12,351 nucleotides of DNA from an uncultured Campylobacter sp. (lineage in GTDB: Bacteria > Campylobacterota > Campylobacteria > Campylobacterales > Campylobacteraceae). Position numbers and translations under genes: made by a program. The stretch is taken from the NCBI GenBank assembly GCA_905373295.1, contig CAJPSJ010000030.1:1-12351 (forward strand). The letters run 5' to 3'. Positions within the stretch are counted from its first letter, which is position 1. Each line of letters begins with the position of its first letter. This document shows, piece by piece, positions 2,234-12,351 of this stretch. The notes under the pieces were generated by a model. It was not told where the DNA came from. It saw only the letters and a list, made by a program, of their open reading frames with translations, and ran no database searches.

Positions 2234-2264
2234 TAAGCTAAGAATTTCTCAAATGGAGAGGAAA

Positions 2265-4145
2265 ATGAGCGAATCAAATTTCAACAGACGCGATTTCTTA
2301 AAATCGGCCTGTATCAGCGTCGGCGCGCTTAGCCTTAGCGGCTGCGTGGATACCGACAAGAGTAAAAGCGTAGACGGCGGCAACGAAGGCGGCCTTCCTA
2401 GTGTGGACGTACTCGTTATCGGCTCGGGAGGCGCGGGTTTGCGCGCAGCCGTGGCGGTAAGAAAGAGTAATCCAAATCTCAGCGTCGTCGTGGCTACGAA
2501 GATGATGCCTTCGCGCAACGCTACCTGTATGGCGGAAGGCGGTATTAACGGCGTTACGAGTTTCAGTGGCGGCGATTCATACAAGCTTCACGCCTACGAC
2601 ACCGTAAAGGGCGGCGCATATCTCGTAGATCAGGACGCCGCGATTAAATTTTGCGAGCTTGCGGGCCCTACGATTGCCGAGATGGATTATATCGGCACGC
2701 TATTTTCCAGAAACGCCAGCGGCGGCGTGGATGGCAAAGAAAGCGGCGTCCCGGGCGGCGTAGCGCAGCGCTTTATGGGCGGCGCGTCTAAAAAACGATG
2801 CAACTACTCCGCCGACAAGACGGGTCATATCTTGATGCACGCCTGTTTTGACGATGCGGTCAGCAACGGCGTGAAATTTTTAATCGATCACGAGTTACTT
2901 GAGATCAGCGCGCCTGACGGTAGATGCGAGGGCGTCGTACTTCGAAATATCCAAACCGGCGATTTTTATCCCGTGCTTTGCAAAGCCTTGGTAATCGCGA
3001 CGGGCGGATATACGAGGATGTTTTACAACCGCACCTCGGTGCCTTATATCGCTACCGGCGACGGTATCGCGGCTGCACTGCGCGCGGGTCTTGGATTTAG
3101 CGATCCGGAGATGGTGCAGTTTCATCCGACCGGTATCAAAAGCGGCGGCGCGCTCATTACCGAAGCTGCGCGCGGCGAGGGCGGATATCTGCTCAATAAC
3201 AAAGGTGAGCGTTTTATGAAAAACTACCACGAAAAGATGGAGCTTGCGCCGCGCGATGTCGTAGCTCGCGCGATCGAAACCGAGATTCGCGAGGGTAGGG
3301 GATACGGCGAGGGGCTAGGCGCATACGTGCTGCTTGACGTAAGACACCTCGGAAAAGATAAAATTTTAAAAGCCCTTCCTAAGATCAGACACACCGCCAT
3401 TTTGTTTGAGGGTATCGATCTTATCGAGGAGCCGATTCCGATTCGTCCGACCGCACACTACTCGATGGGCGGCATCGAAGTGTCTAAATTTGACGATATG
3501 AGCACTAAAATTTCGGGGCTTTACACCGCTGGCGAAGCGTCTTGTATCTCGATCCACGGCGCAAATCGCTTGGGCGGAAATTCTTTGACTGACGCCGTCG
3601 TAACGGGCAAGCTCGCAGGACTCGGCGCAGCGGATTATGCCTCAAAGCAGGAGGGCTTCGGCTCTGGTAAAAGAGCAAGCGAGCTGGCGCAAAAATGGCA
3701 GGCTAAATTTAAGCAGATCGCAAACGGCTCGGGCAAGGCAAACGAGATGTATGAGTTGCGCGAAGAGCTAGGCGCGCAGCTTTGGGATAATATGGGTATC
3801 TTTAGAACCGGCGAAAAGCTTGATCTGCTTTCGCAAAATTTAGAGGGTATCAGAGCGCGCTACGACGATCTACGCGTCGCGGATGTAAATCCGGTTATGA
3901 ATACCGCATTTACTGACTACGTCGAGCTTGGAAATTTAATCCTGCTTGCGCGTTGTGCGTGTTTGGCTGCGCAAAAGAGGCTTGAAAGCCGCGGCGCGCA
4001 TACCAGAGAGGATTATCCGAAGCGCGACGATAAAAATTTCTTAAAGCACAGTATCGTGACGATGAACGACGCGGGCGAGCTAAGCTTGGGCTACAAAGAG
4101 GTCGTCGTTACGGAATTCTCTCTTGACGGAAGGAAACCTCAATGA
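2265..4145 (+). CDS. mfrA: 8-methylmenaquinol:fumarate reductase flavoprotein MfrA (SdhA/FrdA family, Tat-exported)
   Basis: Catalytic flavoprotein of the periplasmic SdhABE-type fumarate reductase; reduces fumarate to succinate on FAD. I use the ATG at 2265 (626 residues) rather than the in-frame ATG at 2253, because GGAGAGG at 2255-2261 sits just ahead of it and would lie inside the longer form. N-terminal NRRDFLKS (R8, R9) is a twin-arginine signal; its hydrophobic stretch ends in LSGC (C27), a possible lipobox. The FAD Rossmann motif is VIGSGGAG. Active-site residues are present: H287 (HPTG), E300 and R303 (TEAARGEGG), R330 (PRD, matching E. coli FrdA R287), H398 (HYSMGG), R435 (GANRLGGNSL). 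At the position of the flavin-linking His (E. coli RSHT) the protein has RNAT, so Ala86. It overlaps mfrB by ATGA. It is not the cytoplasmic FrdA: the Tat signal and the mfrE neighbour mark the Mfr type. Confidence 0.93.
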   Translation: MSESNFNRRDFLKSACISVGALSLSGCVDTDKSKSVDGGNEGGLPSVDVLVIGSGGAGLRAAVAVRKSNPNLSVVVATKMMPSRNATCMAEGGINGVTSFSGGDSYKLHAYDTVKGGAYLVDQDAAIKFCELAGPTIAEMDYIGTLFSRNASGGVDGKESGVPGGVAQRFMGGASKKRCNYSADKTGHILMHACFDDAVSNGVKFLIDHELLEISAPDGRCEGVVLRNIQTGDFYPVLCKALVIATGGYTRMFYNRTSVPYIATGDGIAAALRAGLGFSDPEMVQFHPTGIKSGGALITEAARGEGGYLLNNKGERFMKNYHEKMELAPRDVVARAIETEIREGRGYGEGLGAYVLLDVRHLGKDKILKALPKIRHTAILFEGIDLIEEPIPIRPTAHYSMGGIEVSKFDDMSTKISGLYTAGEASCISIHGANRLGGNSLTDAVVTGKLAGLGAADYASKQEGFGSGKRASELAQKWQAKFKQIANGSGKANEMYELREELGAQLWDNMGIFRTGEKLDLLSQNLEGIRARYDDLRVADVNPVMNTAFTDYVELGNLILLARCACLAAQKRLESRGAHTREDYPKRDDKNFLKHSIVTMNDAGELSLGYKEVVVTEFSLDGRKPQ

Positions 4146-5116
4146 AATTTATCATAGACCGCTTCGACGGAAGCAAAAATTATAAGCAAGCCTATGAGCT
4201 TAGTTTAGAGCAGATCAAAGGAAAGACCCTGCTTGGAGTTTTGCAATTTATTAAGCAAAATTTAGACATCACTTTAAATTTTACCGCAGCGTGCCGTATG
4301 GCGATATGCGGAGCCTGTGCGGTAAGGGTAAACGGACACTCATATCTTGCCTGCGATACCAAGATGGAGGCTCTGCTTGCGGAGTATGAGAACCCCGATA
4401 GTTTTACGATCTCCCCTTTAAATAATTTTCGAGTGATCTCGGATCTAGTAGTGGATTGGGAGCCTAGTATCGAAAATTTAAGAAAGATTAAACCTACTAT
4501 TACTCCTAAGAAAGAATTTAGCGCCGAAAAGGGCTGTAAACAAAGCCCTGAGCAGATGGAGCGCGTAAAAAAGCAGTGGGATTGTATCCTTTGCGGATGT
4601 TGCGCTAGCGAATGCAATAAGCTAGAAGCTGACGCAAGCGATTATATGCAACCCTTTGTTTTTACCCATGCTAACCGCGCCGCGTTTGATTCAAGAAGCA
4701 GGGACGCTATGCCTCATCTAAAGCCTGCAGTGCTAAACGGATTATGGCTATGCGTACACTGCCAAGAGTGCGCCGATCGCTGCCCTAAAGGCATAAGCGC
4801 TCAAAGCGATATTACCGCACTTCGCGCCCTAGCGATGAAAAAGGGCTTAACCGCAGGAAGCGGTCCGGGACATGCCGAGGCGTTCCTGCTAGACATCGTA
4901 GAGGGAAGCGGAAGATTAAACGAGATCAAGCTCGCTTTAAGAAGCGAAGGCGTATTTGCCAATATGGGCAAGATGGATGTAGCGGCAAATTTAATGGCTG
5001 CAGGCAAGATGAATCCTCTTCATGCTTTCGGCGAAGAGGAGATCGAGGGTCATGCGCAGCTCGTTAAGATGATAGAGGCCGCACGCAAAGCTCAAGCTAG
5101 CGGCGAGATAGAATAA
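4142..5116 (+). CDS. mfrB: Methylmenaquinol:fumarate reductase iron-sulfur subunit MfrB
   Basis: Electron-transfer subunit of 324 residues linking MfrE to the flavin in MfrA. The N-terminal ferredoxin domain has C51, C56, C59 and C71 for [2Fe-2S]. The C-terminal domain has CILCGCCASEC (C148, C151, C154, C158) and CVHCQECADRCP (C204, C207, C210, C214). The numbering is the same as E. coli FrdB, where C148/C151/C154/C214 hold [4Fe-4S] and C158/C204/C210 hold [3Fe-4S]. Here position 207, Val in E. coli, is Cys, so the third cluster is probably [4Fe-4S], as described for archaeal SdhABE-type enzymes. After the second cysteine motif there is a C-terminal tail of about 110 residues that E. coli FrdB lacks. 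No signal peptide is visible, so it probably crosses the membrane with MfrA. Its start overlaps the mfrA stop by four bases (ATGA), implying translational coupling. Confidence 0.95.
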   Translation: MKFIIDRFDGSKNYKQAYELSLEQIKGKTLLGVLQFIKQNLDITLNFTAACRMAICGACAVRVNGHSYLACDTKMEALLAEYENPDSFTISPLNNFRVISDLVVDWEPSIENLRKIKPTITPKKEFSAEKGCKQSPEQMERVKKQWDCILCGCCASECNKLEADASDYMQPFVFTHANRAAFDSRSRDAMPHLKPAVLNGLWLCVHCQECADRCPKGISAQSDITALRALAMKKGLTAGSGPGHAEAFLLDIVEGSGRLNEIKLALRSEGVFANMGKMDVAANLMAAGKMNPLHAFGEEEIEGHAQLVKMIEAARKAQASGEIE

Positions 5117-5126
5117 GGAGGAGAGG

Positions 5127-5984
5127 ATGAATAACGAATTTGCATTTTTCCCGGGTTGCGTTTTAAGTCAAGCCGCAAAGGAATCTAAAATTTCACTTGA
5201 AGCGATCGCTCCGGTGCTGGGTATTAAACTTCATGAGATAAAAGGCTGGAGCTGCTGCGGGGCTAGTCAAGCTCAATGCGTCGATCCTATGGCAAGCCTA
5301 GTAGCTAATGCCAGAAACATCGCGCTAGCCGAGGGTATGAATATGCCTCTACTAACTACCTGCTCCACCTGTATGCTAACTCTAACCAAAGCAAAGCTAA
5401 CTTTGGATAAAGGAGCTAAAAGCTATATCAATACCTTTTTAAAAGAGGGCGGTATGCAGTATCAGGGAAGTACCGAGATTACGAGCCTGCTTTGGGTTCT
5501 ATATCAAAGCTTAGATACATTAAAAGCTAAAGTTACGAGGCCGCTAACAAATTTAAAAGTAGCGCTATTTTACGGCTGCCACTCATTAAGACCGGAGCGC
5601 GAGCTTAAAAAAGAGAGCTCGACCAATCCGAAAAGCTTTGAAGCGGTAGTTGGGGCTCTCGGCGCTCAGATAGTGCCTTTTGAAAAGCGCCTTGATTGCT
5701 GTGGCTTTCACGCTAGCTATCCAGCGGTAAAATCGGTATCTAAAATGTCAAGCGAGATCGTAAATGACGCTGCCGAGCATGGAGCGGACGTCGTAGTTAC
5801 TCCTTGTCCGCTATGTCAGATGCAGCTTGATATCTATCAGGAGCGATACCAAGAAGCGATGAACTCAAAGGCAAGAAAGCCGATCATCCACCTATCTCAG
5901 CTGGTAGGCCTTGCTCTTGGGCTAAGCAACGAGCAGCTTGGACTAAACATCAATATCCAAGATGCAACGAGATTGGTAAGCTGA
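5127..5984 (+). CDS. mfrE: Methylmenaquinol:fumarate reductase subunit MfrE (two CCG domains, HdrB-like)
   Basis: Third subunit (285 residues), taking the place of the membrane cytochrome found in classical fumarate reductases. It has two cysteine-rich CCG domains: C11, C43-C44-G, C79-x2-C82, and C151, C191-C192-G, C227-x2-C230. In heterodisulfide reductase HdrB such domains hold noncubane [4Fe-4S] clusters, so MfrE probably carries one or two of these and meets the menaquinol. The C-terminal LSQLVGLALGL is typical of HdrB-like proteins. There is no clear transmembrane helix or signal peptide; membrane contact would be peripheral and export would rely on the MfrA Tat signal. The ribosome site is very strong (AAGGAGGAG at 5115-5123), ten bases after the mfrB stop. 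This is the last gene of mfrABE. Confidence 0.92.
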   Translation: MNNEFAFFPGCVLSQAAKESKISLEAIAPVLGIKLHEIKGWSCCGASQAQCVDPMASLVANARNIALAEGMNMPLLTTCSTCMLTLTKAKLTLDKGAKSYINTFLKEGGMQYQGSTEITSLLWVLYQSLDTLKAKVTRPLTNLKVALFYGCHSLRPERELKKESSTNPKSFEAVVGALGAQIVPFEKRLDCCGFHASYPAVKSVSKMSSEIVNDAAEHGADVVVTPCPLCQMQLDIYQERYQEAMNSKARKPIIHLSQLVGLALGLSNEQLGLNINIQDATRLVS

Positions 5985-6007
5985 TCTTTGGGAAATTTTC
6001 TAAAGAT
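5984..6007 (+). terminator. Hairpin directly after the mfrE stop
   Basis: ATCTTTGGGAAA (5984-5995) can pair with TTTTCTAAAGAT (5996-6007) along its length with two G-U pairs, leaving a loop once the innermost pairs open. It starts at the last base of the mfrE stop. There is no T-tract afterwards (TTAACGG), so it may be a weak or factor-dependent terminator or an mRNA 3'-end stabiliser; the call is tentative. Confidence 0.3.
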
Positions 6008-6011
6008 TTAA

Positions 6012-6084
6012 CGGATGATTTTGCAAAAATATTTCGCCGCGACGCACAAACAGTGCACCTGCTAGTATCGCACAAAATCATCCG
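6012..6084. repeat. 12-bp inverted repeat with structured 49-nt interior
   Basis: CGGATGATTTTG (6012-6023) and CAAAATCATCCG (6073-6084) are perfect reverse complements. Nested inside are GCGA/TCGC (6039-6042, 6068-6071) and the small hairpin GCAC-AAACA-GTGC (6044-6056), all compatible with one folded structure. Neither side has a T-run, so it is not an ordinary intrinsic terminator. It could be a small RNA or leader element, a dispersed repeat, or a protein site. Confidence 0.5.
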
Positions 6085-6120
6085 ACCTACGCCTGCTTTA
6101 TCCTAAAATACTTTTTACCG

Positions 6121-6260
6121 CTATAAAATTCTTGGATAAAATTTTATCGCCTCGTAAATTTTAATGCTTCATAAAATTTAATGTTTTCTCCGCCGTCATT
6201 TAACGTTTCGTCCGCTGAGTAAATTTTAATTCGCCTTTTATTTTTAAATTTTAAACCCAT
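6121..6260. repeat. Array of degenerate TAAAATTTTAAT words with C/G-rich spacers
   Basis: At least six copies of an ATAAAATT/TAAATTTTAAT-type core follow one another (near 6123, 6136, 6154, 6171, 6219 and 6245), separated by short C/G-containing pieces such as CGCCTCG, GCTTC, CTCCGCCGTC and GTCCGCTGAG. The spacing is irregular. Within it GATAAAATTTTATC (6135-6148) is a perfect 14-bp palindrome. Some of this may only reflect base composition. Confidence 0.35.
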
Positions 6261-6328
6261 TAGACAACGAATAAATATAAAATTTTAATTAAATCTAACG
6301 AAATTTAAGGTGCATGAATTTTAAATTT

Positions 6329-6369
6329 TGATAGAATGCCATTTAAAAATATCCTAAATTTCAGGAGGA
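6329..6369 (+). promoter_or_regulatory. Extended -10 promoter and ribosome site for hydABCDE
   Basis: TG-A-TAGAAT (6329-6337) fits an extended -10 element. No -35 consensus is seen 16-18 bases upstream, which is usual for Campylobacter sigma70 promoters. Transcription would start near 6344, giving a leader of about 30 bases. AGGAGGA (6363-6369) is a near-ideal Shine-Dalgarno four bases ahead of the hydA ATG at 6374. Confidence 0.5.
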
Positions 6370-6373
6370 CATT

Positions 6374-7519
6374 ATGGTTGATTTGGCTCAAATTTCGGCT
6401 AGACTTGATGCCGTTGAGCGTTTGCCGCGAATAAAAGCGGATGAGAGCATACAAGAAAGGCTTAAGAGCAAAGGTTTTTCGCGCCGCGATTTTATGAAAT
6501 GGAGTGGAGCGATGACCGCGATGCTCGGGCTTCCGGCCGCATTTGCACCGAGCGTGGCGCGAGCTGCGGAACTTGCGGATCGCCTGCCGGTGATCTGGCT
6601 TCATATGGCGGAGTGCACGGGCTGTAGCGAGAGCTTGCTGCGCACCGACACGCCTAGCATCGACAGCCTTATATTTGATTACATTAGCCTAGAATACCAC
6701 GAGACGATAATGGCTGCCGCAGGCTGGCAAGCCGAGGAAAATTTAGAGGGCGCGATCGAAAAATATAAGGGGCGCTATATATTAATGGTCGAGGGCGGAA
6801 TCCCAAGCGGCGAGAATGAATTTTTCCTAACCGTGGGTCCTGAGGGCAAGAGCGGAGCTCAGCACTGCAAACACGCGGCCGAAGGCGCTGCGGCAATATT
6901 TGCGATCGGCACCTGTTCGAGCTTCGGCGGTATCCAAGCCGCGGCCCCGAATCCGACCGGCGCCGTAGGTTTGGACAAAATCATAAACAAACCCGTCATC
7001 AACATCCCGGGCTGTCCGCCTAGCGAAAAAAATATCGTCGGCAACGTGCTAAATTTTATCCTTTTCGGCACACTTCCAAGTCTGGACGTTTATAACAGGC
7101 CCAAATGGGCTTACGGGCTACGAATACATGATCTGTGCGAGCGCCGCGGACATTTCGACGCGGGCGAGTTTGTAGAAAGCTTCGGCGATGCGGGCGCGAA
7201 GGACGGATATTGCCTTTATAAAGTAGGTTGCAAGGGTCCTTATACATTTAATAACTGCTCGCGCGAGCGCTTCAACTCCCACACTAGCTGGCCGGTACAG
7301 GCGGGTCACGGTTGTATAGGCTGCTCGGAACCTGATTTTTGGGATCATATGGGACCTTTTGAGGAGCCTTTGGCGGATCGCCTTTACGAAAGCGTTTTCG
7401 GCGGGCTCGGCGCTGATGCTACCGCAGATAAGATAGGTGTCGGAATTTTAGCGATCACGGGTGTTGCGGTAGCGGCACATGCGGCGATTGCGTCATTTAA
7501 GAAAGATAAAGGGGAATAA
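6374..7519 (+). CDS. hydA: [NiFe] uptake hydrogenase small subunit HydA
   Basis: Electron-transfer subunit (381 residues) of a periplasmic, membrane-anchored H2-oxidising hydrogenase of the Wolinella HydABC type. A Tat signal is present: about 36 n-region residues, then SRRDFMKW (R37, R38), a hydrophobic stretch, and likely cleavage after A64 (VARA). Proximal [4Fe-4S] ligands are C81, C84, C181 and C214 (CTGC, GTC, PGCPP). Distal ligands are H252, C255, C280 and C286; medial [3Fe-4S] ligands are C295, C314 and C317. A C-terminal hydrophobic helix (about 354-375) followed by KKDKGE anchors the enzyme to the membrane and HydC. The long n-region is real if the start is at 6374, and the strong ribosome site there supports this; the next Met (41) lies after the RR motif. 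First gene of hydABCDE. Confidence 0.95.
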   Translation: MVDLAQISARLDAVERLPRIKADESIQERLKSKGFSRRDFMKWSGAMTAMLGLPAAFAPSVARAAELADRLPVIWLHMAECTGCSESLLRTDTPSIDSLIFDYISLEYHETIMAAAGWQAEENLEGAIEKYKGRYILMVEGGIPSGENEFFLTVGPEGKSGAQHCKHAAEGAAAIFAIGTCSSFGGIQAAAPNPTGAVGLDKIINKPVINIPGCPPSEKNIVGNVLNFILFGTLPSLDVYNRPKWAYGLRIHDLCERRGHFDAGEFVESFGDAGAKDGYCLYKVGCKGPYTFNNCSRERFNSHTSWPVQAGHGCIGCSEPDFWDHMGPFEEPLADRLYESVFGGLGADATADKIGVGILAITGVAVAAHAAIASFKKDKGE

Positions 7520-7521
7520 TC

Positions 7522-9243
7522 ATGTCGCAAAGAATCGTAATAGATCCGATAACCAGAATAGAGGGACATTTAAGAATAGAGGTCGTAGTGGATGATGAAA
7601 ACGTCGTCCGCGAGGCTTATAGTAGCTCGACGCTATGGCGCGGGCTTGAGACCATAGTAAAAAATAGAGATCCGCGCGACGCGGGATTTTTTATGCAAAG
7701 AATTTGCGGCGTCTGCACCTTCTCGCATTACAAAGCGGGTATCGTCGCGGTAGAAAACGCCCTCGGCATAACTCCGCCGCTAAATGCCTTGCTAACGCGC
7801 ACGTTGATGGCTAACGCGCTATTTTTACACGATCATCCGGTGCATTTTTATCAACTCCACGGGCTTGATTTTGTAGATGTAGTAAGCGCGCTTAGCGCCG
7901 ATCCTAAAAAAGCGAGCGAAGAGGCGTTTAAATACTGCGATACCCCTTATGCGTGCGGTGCGGATAAACTAAAAGAGGTGCAAGATCGCGTGGGCGCTTT
8001 TGTTAAAAAAGGCGCCTTGGGGCCTTTTGCCAACGCCTACTTCGGTCATCCAACATATAAGCTTAGCCCGGAGCAAAATTTGATCGCTCTTTCGCACTAT
8101 CTTGAGTGTTTGCGCATTCAGCGCACGGCGGCTCAGATGATGGCGATATTCGGTGCGAAGCAGCCTCATCCGCAAAGCCTTACCGTAGGCGGCGTAACCT
8201 GCGTGATGGATATACTAAGTCCTGCGAGACTTGGCGAATATATGTCTAAATTTAAAGAGGTCGCAGACTTCGTAAATCGCGCCTACTATCCTGATCTTGT
8301 AATGGCTGCGAAGGCTTACGGTAACGAGCCTAGCGTGCTAAATGATATCGGCGTGGCAAATTTATGGACTCATCAAGAATTTCAGCTTTCAAAGAACGAA
8401 TGGCTATTTCAAAGCGGCATGATTATGAACGGCGATATTAGCAAGGTTTTAGAGCTCGATGAGAACAAGATTACCGAGGAGGCAACGCATGCGTGGTATA
8501 AAAACGATGCGCCGCTTCATCCTTACGATGGCGAGCAAGAGCCGAATTATACGGGCCTTCAGGACGGACAGAGCATCGACGCGCACGGTAAAGAAGCGCA
8601 TACGAAGGTGCTCGATACCCAGGGCAAATACACCTGGATCAAGGCTCCGCGCTACGACGGCAAGCCGCTTCAGGTGGGACCGCTTGCAAATATCGTGGTA
8701 AATTACGCCAAGAAAAACGAGCGCGTAGTAAAGGTCGTGGATCAATTCCTAAAAGACGCCGGCTTGCCGCTTGAAGCGGTATTTTCGACGCTTGGACGAA
8801 CGGCGTGCCGTATGATCGAAGCTAAAGTCGTAGCCGATAACGGACTGATCGCGCTAGAAAATTTGATCGCAAACATCAAAAGCGGCGATACGCAAACCTG
8901 CGCAAAATATGTAATCGATAACTCAAAAGAGTACAAAGGTCGCTATATCGGTCACGTACCGCGCGGCGCACTTAGCCACTGGTGCAGGATCGAAAAGGGC
9001 GTCATCAAAAACTGGCAGGCGGTCGTACCTTCTACTTGGAACGCCACACCGAAGGATAAAGACGGCGCTATGGGCGCTTACGAATCCTGCTTGATCGGAC
9101 TTAAGCTTGCCGATCTTTCCAAGCCGCTAGAGATCATCCGCCGCATCCACTCTTACGATCCTTGCATAGCTTGCGCCGTGCACGTAATGGACGCTAAAGG
9201 GGCGGAGCTTGGCTGCTATAGGGTAGATCCCAGCAAAGGATAG
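7522..9243 (+). CDS. hydB: [NiFe] uptake hydrogenase large subunit HydB
   Basis: Catalytic subunit (573 residues) with the Ni-Fe site that splits H2. The N-terminal ligand motif is RICGVCTFSH (C62, C65) and the C-terminal one is DPCIACAVH (C548, C551). The 19 residues after H554 (VMDAKGAELGCYRVDPSKG) are the extension expected to be cut off by the maturation protease after Ni insertion. There is no signal peptide; the folded protein is exported with HydA through Tat, as known for this class. It starts two bases after the hydA stop, with AAAGGGG as ribosome site. Length and motifs are ordinary for group 1 uptake hydrogenases, and I see no truncation. Confidence 0.96.
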   Translation: MSQRIVIDPITRIEGHLRIEVVVDDENVVREAYSSSTLWRGLETIVKNRDPRDAGFFMQRICGVCTFSHYKAGIVAVENALGITPPLNALLTRTLMANALFLHDHPVHFYQLHGLDFVDVVSALSADPKKASEEAFKYCDTPYACGADKLKEVQDRVGAFVKKGALGPFANAYFGHPTYKLSPEQNLIALSHYLECLRIQRTAAQMMAIFGAKQPHPQSLTVGGVTCVMDILSPARLGEYMSKFKEVADFVNRAYYPDLVMAAKAYGNEPSVLNDIGVANLWTHQEFQLSKNEWLFQSGMIMNGDISKVLELDENKITEEATHAWYKNDAPLHPYDGEQEPNYTGLQDGQSIDAHGKEAHTKVLDTQGKYTWIKAPRYDGKPLQVGPLANIVVNYAKKNERVVKVVDQFLKDAGLPLEAVFSTLGRTACRMIEAKVVADNGLIALENLIANIKSGDTQTCAKYVIDNSKEYKGRYIGHVPRGALSHWCRIEKGVIKNWQAVVPSTWNATPKDKDGAMGAYESCLIGLKLADLSKPLEIIRRIHSYDPCIACAVHVMDAKGAELGCYRVDPSKG

Positions 9244-9246
9244 ATC

Positions 9247-9921
9247 ATGAAAAAAAGATTTGCGGAATACGAGTTCTCAATCGGTCTTAGGCTCACGCAC
9301 TGGCTGCGTGCGCTTTGCATTACGATTTTGGTGATTACCGGATATTACATCGCCTTTGTTTTCACCGCGCCCGAGGTGAGTCCCGAGCCGGTGCTTTTTA
9401 TGCAGGCTAAATTTAGATTCGTGCATCTGGTCTTCGGCTTTGCAATGATCGGCGCGGCGATCTTTAAAACCTACCTTTTCTTCTTTGATAAAAAGAGCAG
9501 AAAAGAGCTTTTGAGTATCAAGGATTTTTTTAGCCCACGCGTCTGGATCGCTCAGATCAAATACTATATCTTTTTGGGCGAGCACCCGCATCTTCGCGGC
9601 GTTTACAACCCGCTACAGTTCATCTCCTATCTGGGCTTTTATCTAGTGCTGTTCGTAATCTGCCTAACGGGAATGATTCTATACGTTCACGTCTATCACG
9701 AGGGGTTAGGCGGCGCGCTATACGGGCTCTTGCGCCCGCTAGAAGCTGCGATGGGCGGTCTAAGCGAAGTACGAATGATTCACCATCTTTGCATGAATAT
9801 CATCATAATCTTCGTGCCGATCCACGTCTATATGGCGGTCTTTAACGCCGTCAAGGGTAGAGACGGCGCGATGGATGCGATCGTAAGCGGCTATAAATTT
9901 AAAAAGGAAGAGCACGCTTGA
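9247..9921 (+). CDS. hydC: Hydrogenase di-heme cytochrome b subunit HydC
   Basis: Integral membrane subunit (224 residues) that takes electrons from HydA and reduces menaquinone. Four hydrophobic helices are visible, at about 20-40, 57-80, 125-148 and 178-200. Candidate heme b ligands are H18 (LTHWLRA), H60 (FRFVHL), H179/H180 (MIHHLCM) and H193 (VPIHVYM), placed as in the Ni/Fe-hydrogenase cytochrome b family. It starts three bases after the hydB stop with AAAGGA upstream. Its stop overlaps the hydD start (TTGA), so the two are probably translationally coupled. Together with the HydA C-terminal anchor it ties the periplasmic enzyme to the membrane. Confidence 0.94.
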   Translation: MKKRFAEYEFSIGLRLTHWLRALCITILVITGYYIAFVFTAPEVSPEPVLFMQAKFRFVHLVFGFAMIGAAIFKTYLFFFDKKSRKELLSIKDFFSPRVWIAQIKYYIFLGEHPHLRGVYNPLQFISYLGFYLVLFVICLTGMILYVHVYHEGLGGALYGLLRPLEAAMGGLSEVRMIHHLCMNIIIIFVPIHVYMAVFNAVKGRDGAMDAIVSGYKFKKEEHA

Positions 9922-10796
9922 GAGTGCTGGTACTGGGTATCGGCAACGTTATCTACGCGGACGAGGGCATAGGCGTGCACTTCGTCCGCGCGCTCGCGCA
10001 GAACTATAAATTTTATCCTAAAGCTACCGCGCGAAATTCTATGGCGGGCGAGGATTTAACGGTGCATAATTTTATGCAAAATTCTGTCCAAGTCTCTGCG
10101 ATACAAAATTCTACCTCGCAAAATTCCATAGAGCGCAACTCCTTGCAAAATTTTGCAGATGAGAATTCTATCTTTAAGCAAAATTTCGCAGCAGTAAATT
10201 TAAACCGAAATTCTACTTCAGAACATTCCGCAAAGCAGGATTCCGCTTCAAATTTTACTTTGCAAAATTCCATAATAAATTCCGCAGCGCAAAGCTCTAT
10301 CAATTCGGACTTTGTCGCCGCAAATTCAGCCGCCCCGAGCAGCAGCGCGGATCAGATCCGCTTTATCGACGGCGGGACTTTGGCTAGCTTTTTGATGCCT
10401 ACGATGGCAGAATTTGATGAAATTTTGCTCGTAGATTGCATAGACGCGGACGGCGCAAAGGGCGGCGAGGTGTATTTTTTCGACTACGACGCGATGCCTA
10501 AGCAGATCAGCTGGAGCGGCTCGGCGCACGAGGTCGAAATGCTTCAAACCCTGCAGATGATGGATCTTTGCGGCGATCTGCCTCACGTTAAAATTCTAGC
10601 GGTCGTGCCGCGGCGCATCGAAGAAGCGAGCTTTAAGCTAAGCTCCGTGATATTAGAGTCCTCAAAAATCATGGAAAAAACGGCGCTTAAGCACCTATCG
10701 GATCTTGGCTTCGCGCATGAAAAAATCGCCGATCTCAGCGCCCAAGACATCGCGGATCGATTTGCAAAAAGGGGGCGAGATGATAGTAGCATATGA
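9918..10796 (+). CDS. hydD: Hydrogenase maturation protease HydD with an unusual ~111-residue low-complexity insertion
   Basis: Cytoplasmic nickel-dependent endopeptidase (HyaD/HybD family) that removes the C-terminal tail of HydB. I read a TTG start at 9918: it gives the family N-terminus MRVLVLGIGN and has AGGAAG just upstream; GTG at 9924 is less likely. Nickel ligands fit E. coli HybD E16, D62 and H93 as E16 (DEGIG), D173 (LVDCID) and H204 (SAHE). From D151 (FIDGGT) to H204 the spacing equals HybD exactly (53). Between Y30 and I147, however, there are about 111 extra residues rich in Asn, Ser and Gln with repeated QNS/QNF/RNS/ENS. The protein is 292 residues, against about 165-180 normally. 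The frame stays open and all ligands are kept, so it is probably functional. Its end overlaps hydE by 17 bases. Confidence 0.93.
   Translation: MRVLVLGIGNVIYADEGIGVHFVRALAQNYKFYPKATARNSMAGEDLTVHNFMQNSVQVSAIQNSTSQNSIERNSLQNFADENSIFKQNFAAVNLNRNSTSEHSAKQDSASNFTLQNSIINSAAQSSINSDFVAANSAAPSSSADQIRFIDGGTLASFLMPTMAEFDEILLVDCIDADGAKGGEVYFFDYDAMPKQISWSGSAHEVEMLQTLQMMDLCGDLPHVKILAVVPRRIEEASFKLSSVILESSKIMEKTALKHLSDLGFAHEKIADLSAQDIADRFAKRGRDDSSI
10014..10349 (+). repeat. In-frame low-complexity repeat block inside hydD
   Basis: About twelve degenerate (C)AAAATTC words recur here, all in the hydD reading frame where they encode [Q/R/E]-N-[S/F]. Exact CAAAATTC copies start at 10077, 10104, 10119 and 10263, with spacings of 27, 15 and 144, all multiples of three. 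The block is clearly more AT-rich than the flanking hydD sequence and resembles the noncoding gaps of this window. Read on the minus strand, the words give repeated Glu-Phe-Cys. No terminal inverted repeats or target duplications typical of a transposable element are visible. Confidence 0.7.
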
Positions 10797-12351
10797 GTTT
10801 AACTACCTTAATGAAAACGCGCTGATAGCGCACTTCTTGCTGTTTTATGCCCGCAAAAGCATGCTGGAGTTTTGCCTGAAAAAAGAGGCGAGATTAATAA
10901 GCCTTTTCGTGCGCGGCGGCGAGGATGAAATTTTAAAATTTAGCGACGAGACGATGCCTCTGATTCCAAACTCCATATTTTTGGCAAAATCCTCCGTGCG
11001 CGTCGTGGTGGACGAGGGCGGCGCCGAAGCGAAAGCGCTGAAATTTAACGGCACGTTTAAAGATGCCTCCTCAGGCGATTTAAGTAAATTTTTAGAGGAT
11101 GAAATTTCAAACGCCCATAACACCGCTAAATTTAATAACTTCACTCCGCAAGTGATGAAAGAATACCTCGCTCGCGCCGAGCCCTCTCAAAACGAATTCG
11201 AAATAATAAGCGGCGCCGGCGTGCTTCATGAGGGAAAATTTGAAGCGGTAAGTAGGGAGAATTTTGCTTGCTTACTGGAGTTTTGCCGCATAAACTTATT
11301 TCATGCTCAGCAGGTGCAGATTAAGCGCGGCGACGCAACTTTCACGCTCAAGGCGGACGTGGATTTTAGCACCGATTTTTTGATAGCCGCGGGAGTGGGT
11401 GCGCTGGATGGGATTTTTGTGAGCGATGAAAAGAGCAAAATCGCGCTCGCAGCCTTCGAAAAGCCGCTCATAAGCCTAAAAACCAATGCGATCTTTAGAA
11501 AAAATCACGAGGACGCGCCTAAATTTTTTGACGTAAAGCTTGCGGGCGACATATTCCTGTTTGCGCTGGGGCGCGCTTTGGCAAGCGATGGGATCTATTT
11601 TTTAAGCGCAAAATGCGAAAGCGCGGCGCAAAAAGATAAAATTTTTAAAGTTGTGCCGCTGCAAAACGGCTTTTTGATCGTGCAAAATGAGGATTTTTTA
11701 AGCGGCAGCGCAAGCTCTTATCTGAAAAACTCAAACGACAAAAACTCCGCTCTTTTTGCGCTTACGTGCCGCGAGAAGGGAGTTTTGAACGACTCTAAAA
11801 AACGCGTTTTGCGCTGCTTTTTGGGCGTGGACACGGACGATGAGATCGCAATTTATGGCGAAAGCTCTAAAAAAATTCTGCTTAAATTCGATCTGCCGCG
11901 CAGCTTTGACGAGCTTAAGGCTCAAATTTGCGCGGACGAAACGGGCGCAAAGCTGTTTGAAAATTTCAGCGCCAAATTTAGCGTAAACGTCGCAAAAATC
12001 GATGAAATTTTAAAAAGCGCAAACGCGGGATTTCACGGTATCTTTAACGTCGCCGCGCAGCTTATCTGGGGGCGCGATGCGGCGTTTTTGATTGCGGCTG
12101 CGGAGGATTTTGCGGGCGGCAAAGGGGTGCGACTCGATTTTTGCACGGACGAGCGCGGCTGCGTGCAAGCGGATAAAATTTTGCGTTCGGCGATGAGCTA
12201 TGCGCTCGCAGGCGCCAATGAAAAGCTGTTTGCGTTCGGATTTTTCGATAGTTTGGGCTACTTTTTAAGCGATCTGGCGGATGAGCGCAAAGAGGACTTT
12301 GACGTTTTGATCTTCGGCGGCGCGATGTTTGGCGGGCGCAAATTTGCGGAT
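10780..12351 (+). CDS. hydE: Hydrogenase formation protein HydE (HypF C-terminal-like), 3' truncated
   Basis: The frame is open from ATG 10780 to the right edge (524 codons, no stop), so the C-terminus is missing. The start follows AGGGGGCGAG and overlaps hydD by 17 bases in another frame, suggesting coupling. Its place after hydABCD and its length fit HydE of Wolinella and Helicobacter, needed for forming the hydrogenase and weakly related to the C-terminal part of HypF. The visible support is local: GFHGIFNVAAQLIWGRD (about 417-433) resembles the HypF GRLFDAVAALLG region, and VLIFGGAMFGG (509-519) sits where HypF has its SGGVFQN glycine motif. I see no acylphosphatase domain, no CxxC zinc fingers and no HHxAH metal motif in the visible part. 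The first 400 residues match nothing I recognise. The biochemical role is unknown; the name rests mainly on context. Confidence 0.75.
   Translation, partial: MIVAYEFNYLNENALIAHFLLFYARKSMLEFCLKKEARLISLFVRGGEDEILKFSDETMPLIPNSIFLAKSSVRVVVDEGGAEAKALKFNGTFKDASSGDLSKFLEDEISNAHNTAKFNNFTPQVMKEYLARAEPSQNEFEIISGAGVLHEGKFEAVSRENFACLLEFCRINLFHAQQVQIKRGDATFTLKADVDFSTDFLIAAGVGALDGIFVSDEKSKIALAAFEKPLISLKTNAIFRKNHEDAPKFFDVKLAGDIFLFALGRALASDGIYFLSAKCESAAQKDKIFKVVPLQNGFLIVQNEDFLSGSASSYLKNSNDKNSALFALTCREKGVLNDSKKRVLRCFLGVDTDDEIAIYGESSKKILLKFDLPRSFDELKAQICADETGAKLFENFSAKFSVNVAKIDEILKSANAGFHGIFNVAAQLIWGRDAAFLIAAAEDFAGGKGVRLDFCTDERGCVQADKILRSAMSYALAGANEKLFAFGFFDSLGYFLSDLADERKEDFDVLIFGGAMFGGRKFAD

Follow-up and report, generated by a model that had tools for sequence, protein, structure and literature searches.

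An in-frame, length-variable array of the hexamer RAATTY in the hydrogenase maturation protease gene hydD of the Campylobacter gracilis lineage and its possible link to DNA uptake

DNA uptake words such as the DUS and USS are 9-12 bp long, are recognised as sequence and mostly occur as single or paired, dispersed copies. Such words are known to build up at places that proteins can accommodate; uptake sequences and proteomes were reportedly the subject of work by Findlay and Redfield in 2009, and the word of the methyltransferase CtsM was reportedly already called over-represented in C. jejuni by Beauchamp in 2017. In the portions of the literature accessible here, RAATTY is described as an m6A motif of C. 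jejuni and C. coli (PMC4335053, PMC4687069, PMC8627207), of which 27,986 of the 28,058 sites (99.74%) are methylated in C. jejuni F38011 (PMC4335053). In these same portions, a D12-class enzyme is credited with the methylation (PMC4294202), C. jejuni requires the m6A that CtsM places in RAATTY in order to take up DNA, discrimination during uptake is the stated consequence of this methylation (PMC10046745, PMC8468864), and biased uptake has been put forward as a molecular drive behind the DUS and USS (PMC1939737). Here, we analyse a window of DNA (the whole stretch of 12,351 nt introduced above) in which the hydD gene carries a length-variable in-frame array of RAATTY that is predicted to encode a disordered loop and that has likely grown and been kept because RAATTY would raise the uptake and recombination of the DNA carrying it. 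We assign this reading as a whole a probability of about 0.52; the DNA-level nature of the arrays is well supported, and the uptake step in C. gracilis is proposed by analogy with the described systems.

Along its entire length, the window aligns with 94.7% identity to the nearest genome, a closed genome of 2,281,652 bp (G001), and its species could be a sister species of the oral bacterium C. gracilis. The hydrogenase genes stand in the order hydA, hydB, hydC, hydD, and the features relevant here are as follows:

947-1237, no strand: RAATTY array over the gap that separates a LysR gene from a sulfatase-family gene; 11 sites, 6 wholly intergenic, the others in or across gene ends
6126-6395, no strand: RAATTY array upstream of hydA; 12 sites, 11 wholly intergenic
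6374-7519, plus strand: hydA, NiFe hydrogenase small subunit with a Tat signal (family search)
7522-9243, plus strand: hydB, NiFe hydrogenase large subunit (family search)
9247-9921, plus strand: hydC, Ni/Fe-hydrogenase b-type cytochrome, overlapping the start of hydD
9918-10796, plus strand: hydD, HybD/HyaD-type hydrogenase maturation protease of 292 codons with a TTG start (Pfam, 1CFZ alignment, Foldseek)
10017-10346, plus strand: RAATTY array or degenerate 15-bp minisatellite coding for HydD residues 34-143, not in the 27 other relatives measured
10034-10327, no strand: span of the 13 RAATTY sites in the hydD insert, at 10034, 10079, 10106, 10121, 10148, 10163, 10181, 10196, 10208, 10250, 10265, 10277 and 10322

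HydB would likely be the substrate of HydD. An in-frame GTG at 9924, six bases past the TTG, is an alternative start of hydD and fits the 290-aa form that is common in databases. The gene after hydD (10780-12351) is open at the window end, is without a Pfam match at E 0.001 and presumably resembles HydE of Wolinella and Helicobacter. Further upstream (2253-5984), successive genes encode a flavoprotein of the fumarate reductase/succinate dehydrogenase type, whose N-terminus looks Tat-like by eye, an Fe-S subunit and a subunit with a CCG domain.

HydD matched Pfam HycI with 83.4 bits (cut-off 23) and E. coli HybD (1CFZ) by sequence with E 1.4e-10, and its fold matched 1cfz_A in Foldseek with E 7.4e-12 and a TM score of 0.88 by target length. 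The score against TIGR00140 was 135.3, under the NCBIfam cut-off of 151.8, presumably because the insert splits the match. In the PDB alignment, residues 1-30 correspond to HybD 1-30 and residues from 145 onward to HybD from 34 onward, D173 pairs with HybD 62, and the DGGT-to-His spacing is 53 in both proteins because D151 of the DGGT motif and H204 pair with HybD 40 and 93, confirming the match at E16 and the equal spacing that a preliminary description of the window had claimed. E16, D173 and H204 of HydD are the equivalents of HybD E16, D62 and H93, which we take to be the metal-ligand positions, and they are invariant in 22 of 22 sequences. Both the metal ligands and the fold that define the HyaD/HybD family are present; HydD resembles E. 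coli HybD in fold, ligands and spacing, and differs from it in that 108 residues are added between the first helix/strand and the strand of the DGGT motif. The catalytic core is intact around an in-frame insert, as also claimed before, and HydD would act as an ordinary HybD-type protease bearing a tolerated loop. The search for a new Pfam domain in the insert returned only eCIS_core, at E 0.11 and under its cut-off, which we took as chance.

The distance from the GN motif to DGGT is 142 residues in the window and in G001, compared with 34 in 25 relatives and 36 in two (30 loci were fetched, 28 had both motifs, and L007 and L015 were left out), giving an excess of 108 residues, or 106 against the latter two, in a turn of the otherwise intact HybD core. 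A HydD-like match was found in 51 of the 60 genomes searched, and besides G001 no matching listed frame was longer than 223 aa; among the relatives measured, only the C. gracilis lineage has the insert. It is real and not an assembly error, since the closed genome carries it and the listed HydD proteins that could be measured, 179 of 187, all have a spacer of 54-136 residues. The AlphaFold2 model places 139 residues at a pLDDT of at least 90 and residues 38-142 below 50, predicting a disordered loop. The preliminary description had proposed about 111 extra residues at 10014-10349, gained by the gene and forming either a disordered loop or a variable tract. The gain, relative to the other species measured, and the variability are borne out, the loop agrees with the model, and the extent proved slightly narrower, at 108 residues and about 10017-10346; a conserved, structured domain at this position was looked for in close relatives and not found. 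Its suggestion that noncoding-type DNA had been inserted is unsupported, as the search of G001 for long DNA copies of the hydD block returned, besides hydD itself, a single match with E below 0.001, of 24 bp (40 of the 166 first-look candidates were scored).

Length alleles were compared in 187 listed HydD proteins, combining the overlapping best 120 of 2617 matches to the whole protein and best 120 of 2026 matches to the C-terminal core; 179 had both anchors, and the eight without an anchor were dropped. The spacers measured 54 (1 protein), 102 (9), 107 (2), 111 (6), 116 (146), 119 (5), 125 (9) and 136 residues (1), and only partly follow 5-residue steps. The alleles differ by in-frame indels, some of which fit deletions between QNS units: in single-deletion fits, most breakpoints of the 54-, 102- and 107-residue alleles fell at QNS/QNF units (deletions of 62, 14 and 9 residues), with no mismatch for the 54-residue allele and 6-14 mismatches for the other two. 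The 111-residue alleles fitted poorly, with 31-35 mismatches, and were rejected as simple deletions. Within the insert, the N of N[S/F] is conserved at 0.966 in comparison with 0.873 elsewhere (120 proteins).

The insert contains 13 RAATTY in 336 bp, eight of them AAATTC, and 12 of the 12 spacings are divisible by three. When codons were drawn by genome usage for an unchanged peptide, 3.39 sites were expected, and none of 2000 draws reached 13; the insert of G001 has 15 sites against 4.78 expected, and again none of 2000 draws reached this number. The DNA autocorrelation peaks at lag 15 (0.39), a value reached by none of 200 codon shuffles, while TRF at score 30 detected no array in hydD, from which we conclude that the units are strongly diverged. 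Between window and G001, 41 of 330 bases of the insert differ, with 14, 11 and 16 differences over the codon positions, and 23 of 110 residues are changed, compared with 0 of 33 and 5 of 149 in the N- and C-terminal cores, respectively. Nevertheless, G001 retains 12 of the 13 window sites (null mean 6.85, P 0.0027), and 12 of the 15 G001 sites are kept in the window (null 7.94, P 0.031). The earlier reading of a repeat of QNS, QNF, RNS and ENS therefore stands as far as the variable repeat tract is concerned; the unit, however, is set by the DNA word RAATTY and not by the peptide, and similar tracts occur in other core genes, in several frames, and in intergenic DNA.

The preference for the word extends across the genome. 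In 400 kb of G001, RAATTY occurs 10.5 times per kb, 2.93 times the first-order Markov expectation, compared with 0.23 times for YAATTR. In 282 mechanically called ORFs there are 2422 copies versus 1071 (sd 22) after synonymous shuffling, and in non-coding DNA 1091 versus 304 expected, with 42 versus 143 for YAATTR. The strongest word is AAATTT (1314 against 440), followed by the weaker AAATTC (589 against 382), with GAATTC near nil (80 against 69); the hydD insert, in contrast, has AAATTC at most of its sites. AAATTT ranks 1 of 2080 hexamer classes in G001 (in 16 stretches chosen without regard to tracts) and first as well in G007 and G009, and falls to rank 2042 of 2060 in G030 and to 1457 of 1997 in G045 (one 20-kb stretch each, with 20 ORFs in G030). 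Before AAT|TY, four-fold codons of G001 end in a purine in 0.90 of 439 cases versus 0.64 (767) and 0.65 (816) before other Asn contexts; this wobble contrast is also seen in G007 (0.93 versus 0.78) and G009 (0.94 versus 0.75), is absent in G003 (0.98 versus 0.96), and the purine share in G030 is 0.56 of 16. Non-coding AAATTT flanks in the G001 stretches L069-L088 suggest a longer palindromic preference, T-N-AAATTT-N-A (log2 0.87 at -2 and +7), and TAAAATTTCA occurs in G001 at 4.3 times its fourth-order Markov expectation. Separately, ACATGT, TGGCCA, TGTACA, GTTAAC, GTCGAC and GTATAC are strongly avoided in G001 genes (0.05-0.15 of the synonymous expectation), which hints at past restriction.

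RAATTY is also clustered. Clusters of at least eight copies per 200 bp numbered 52 versus 9.67 by random placement in the 16 G001 stretches (320 kb), 30 versus 4.06 in four picked G001 stretches and 14 versus 2.27 in 40 kb of G007, with little or no excess in most other relatives. Outside the insert, G001 retains 73 of the window's 73 coding sites (58.1 expected under a null that ignores codon constraint), as well as 16 of the 17 sites in the two longer intergenic regions (null 10.85): 11 of 11 in the ungapped columns of 5985-6373 upstream of hydA (P 0.004) and, at 1015-1217, five of six, which is not significant (null 4.10, P 0.38). The array at 947 has its best lag at 12, and no lag was significant in the array at 6126 (P 0.56), inside which a 17-bp tandem repeat of 2.6 copies, AAATTTTAATGCCTCAT, lies at 6139-6183. 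Compared with 31 other R/Y-W4 hexamer classes, coding RAATTY was retained in 148 of 150 versus 1086 of 1222 cases (p 1.8e-5, a value that is too optimistic as sites were counted in both directions); retention was 24 of 28 versus 28 of 43 in the insert (p ~0.06) and 36 of 39 versus 174 of 217 in intergenic DNA (p ~0.07). Synonymous positions and non-coding DNA both favour RAATTY, and its sites are conserved between the two strains.

hydD is not alone in carrying such an array: comparable ones lie in further core genes, where they use more than one reading frame, and between genes. All ten of the tract-bearing G001 ORFs that we picked match conserved Pfam families (names aided by NCBIfam), namely TrmA, MnmE, a PBP1C-type protein, DsbD, a NapG-type ferredoxin, NosL, phospholipase A, HisIE, CcsB/ResB and a NadD-RsfS fusion. 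Three of them were compared across 38 genomes: the open frame of TrmA has 523 aa in G001 versus 256-404 in 35 other genomes with a match, that of NadD-RsfS 582 aa versus at most 308 elsewhere, and that of MnmE 594 aa versus at most 471 in the best matches elsewhere. TrmA alleles (best 120 of 2288 listed, 115 measured) have 46-210 residues between the anchors, and 83 of the 115 share one 5-residue register. The autocorrelation of the inserts peaks at lag 15 in MnmE, is highest at lag 30 and also high at 15 in TrmA, and lies at lag 18 in NadD. The NadD tract uses a K/E-I frame instead of N[S/F], so the common factor is the DNA word. In G001 (L085:18052-19776) and most genomes of the genus searched, a single frame encodes NadD and RsfS as a fusion, and in G007 and G014 they form two frames; the NadD half of G001 is split by about 260 residues.

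Under a mechanical rule of at least six same-frame RAATTY in 240 bp, applied to ORFs of at least 150 aa, tracts were called in 17 of 236 ORFs from the 16 unpicked G001 stretches, compared with 9 of 285 in 15 relatives, six of which have any tract (Fisher p 0.04). Tracts as such are therefore not unique to C. gracilis, and only the particular inserts checked gene by gene (HydD, TrmA, MnmE and NadD) are lineage-specific. Among the 17 tract-bearing ORFs, 12 of 18 frame assignments are to the soluble xN[S/F] frame. If the G001 rate held over about 2,100 genes, on the order of 150 of them would carry tracts, a figure to be read with caution because the positions of the stretches were chosen by eye and not every ORF may be a gene. 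In G003, another species of the genus, a 314-aa ORF (L090:10902-11843) has an NSQNLEN-type tract with ten same-frame RAATTY in 240 bp.

G001 encodes, at C1:466512-467630, a D12 methyltransferase of 373 aa with nine relatives of at least 333 aa at 47-69% identity and three shorter pieces at 41-53%; the C. jejuni sequence is not among them, and the protein at a C. bilis locus is 52% identical. In a wide search for this family, at least 577 of 589 candidate stretches were confirmed and 80 loci were kept, with relatives in Treponema, Akkermansia, Clostridia and others, without general RAATTY enrichment. On the 67 loci of at least 9 kb, the observed/expected ratio of RAATTY had a median of 0.69 (range 0.11-2.42) in 61 non-Campylobacter loci and was 0.95-2.32 in six from Campylobacter. 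G030 carries a 47% identical relative, yet AAATTT ranks near the bottom of the hexamers in its single 20-kb stretch. We therefore rejected the presence of the methyltransferase as the sole cause: the enzyme alone does not enrich RAATTY, because G030 and the 61 non-Campylobacter carriers are without general enrichment, and such carriers fit a role for a recipient that prefers the word. A ComEC domain was found, and was also matched in 10 of 14 control genomes.

On this basis we propose that the D12 methyltransferase of G001 may methylate RAATTY, as its relative CtsM does, and that competent cells may prefer RAATTY-bearing DNA. Alleles with more copies would then win in transformation, and slippage or recombination between units would supply the gain and loss of whole units; array growth would be easiest in surface loops and where the xN[S/F] frame is used, a frame expected to encode soluble disordered sequence. 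The molecular drive argued for DUS and USS might, by analogy, act on the RAATTY arrays in the same manner. More tentatively, and at somewhat less than an even chance, C. gracilis might harbour a genome-wide family of self-promoting coding minisatellites in which each copy of the uptake word raises transmissibility, so that disordered loops, of the order of one hundred and variable between strains, would have remodelled its proteome.

The main rival is a neutral coding minisatellite, in which a 15-bp unit slipped or recombined into a tolerated turn and RAATTY is simply the content of the founding unit, with no uptake advantage. Plain slippage could yield such growth without uptake, and the 5-residue steps of the TrmA alleles (83 of 115 in one register), the periodicity at lags 15 and 30, the breakpoints of most of the 62-, 14- and 9-residue HydD deletions at QNS/QNF units and the slight codon-position structure of the insert divergence (14/11/16) all agree with it. 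We nonetheless regard this explanation as rather unlikely, if a serious contender, as the excess of RAATTY extends to non-coding DNA and to the synonymous sites of ordinary genes, arrays of different frame and lag (18 in NadD, 12 in the intergenic array at 947, none significant at 6126) share the hexamer, and 12 of 13 insert sites are kept versus 6.85 expected. Enrichment and conservation at the level of DNA would equally suit another function of RAATTY, such as nucleoid-protein binding, methylation-dependent regulation or mismatch repair, with the arrays as by-products, and the 99.74% methylation in C. jejuni F38011 (PMC4335053) is in line with this; however, such a function offers no clear reason for dense intragenic arrays, and the consequence stated for C. 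jejuni, in the accessible parts of the reports, is uptake discrimination (PMC10046745, PMC8468864), which makes it improbable.

Selection on the protein, with functional Asn/Ser/Gln-rich disordered loops serving condensates, partner binding or strain-variable tuning of the enzymes, could draw on the predominance of the soluble xN[S/F] frame (12 of 18) and on the conserved N of N[S/F] in HydD (0.966 versus 0.873), but with the peptide kept constant both the wobble test and the synonymous test favour the DNA word, NadD carries a different peptide made from the same word, lengths vary 2.5-fold in HydD and more than 4-fold in TrmA, and the HydD insert is predicted to be disordered, so that we consider this very improbable. 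Hardly any credence is left for a mobile palindromic or insertion element that landed in hydD, like the Rickettsia palindromic elements: although in-frame insertion into conserved genes of one lineage would suit it, long homologous copies were not found in G001 among the 40 of 166 candidates scored (apart from hydD, only the 24-bp match had E below 0.001), and lengths and units differ between loci.

Should growth driven by uptake be correct, an uptake bias would be strong enough to add more than 100 residues to enzymes of tRNA modification, NAD synthesis and hydrogenase maturation, with lengths that are allele-specific in the two proteins checked. Plasmodium proteins with Asn-rich loops offer an analogy, and the C. 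gracilis loops would be a bacterial counterpart with a testable cause, as well as a natural allele series for asking whether transformation drives sequences against protein economy. Database 'domains' of this kind in C. gracilis proteins are not to be taken as new functional domains. In the CC-licensed PMC literature we found no description of such inserts in C. gracilis, which is weak evidence of novelty.

Rickettsia palindromic elements are in-frame, lineage-specific insertions in conserved genes; the arrays here differ in that no homologous element copies were found among the candidates scored. With the CtsM system of C. jejuni they share the strongly enriched hexamer and a D12-class methyltransferase of similar size (373 aa in G001; M.CjeF38011I, 1104 bp), whereas the accessible parts of the accounts of that system make no mention of the dense arrays or protein inserts seen here (PMC10046745, PMC8468864, PMC4335053, PMC8627207, PMC4294202, PMC4687069). 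The DUS, USS and DUES of Neisseriaceae and Pasteurellaceae, for which molecular drive by uptake bias was proposed (PMC1939737), are likewise short words in excess of coding need, placed where proteins tolerate them. Over-representation beyond protein coding holds for RAATTY as well (2422 versus 1071, sd 22), but the word is of 6 bp and forms tandem-like arrays that add at least 100 residues to enzymes; because its copies are densely clustered (52 clusters versus 9.67) instead of dispersed singly or in pairs, the arrays may be said to work like DUS and USS without being members of this class. Bacterial coding VNTRs or minisatellites, known mostly from surface or contingency genes, resemble the arrays in their tandem-like units and in-frame length alleles, the tandem unit being visible here as lag 15 in HydD and the whole-unit alleles as 5-residue steps in TrmA, with only partial steps in HydD. 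For the type strain of C. gracilis, 'no contingency genes' were reported (PMC4574385). The arrays described here differ from known VNTRs in lying in HydD, TrmA, MnmE, NadD and HisIE, with one DNA word common to all of these loci.
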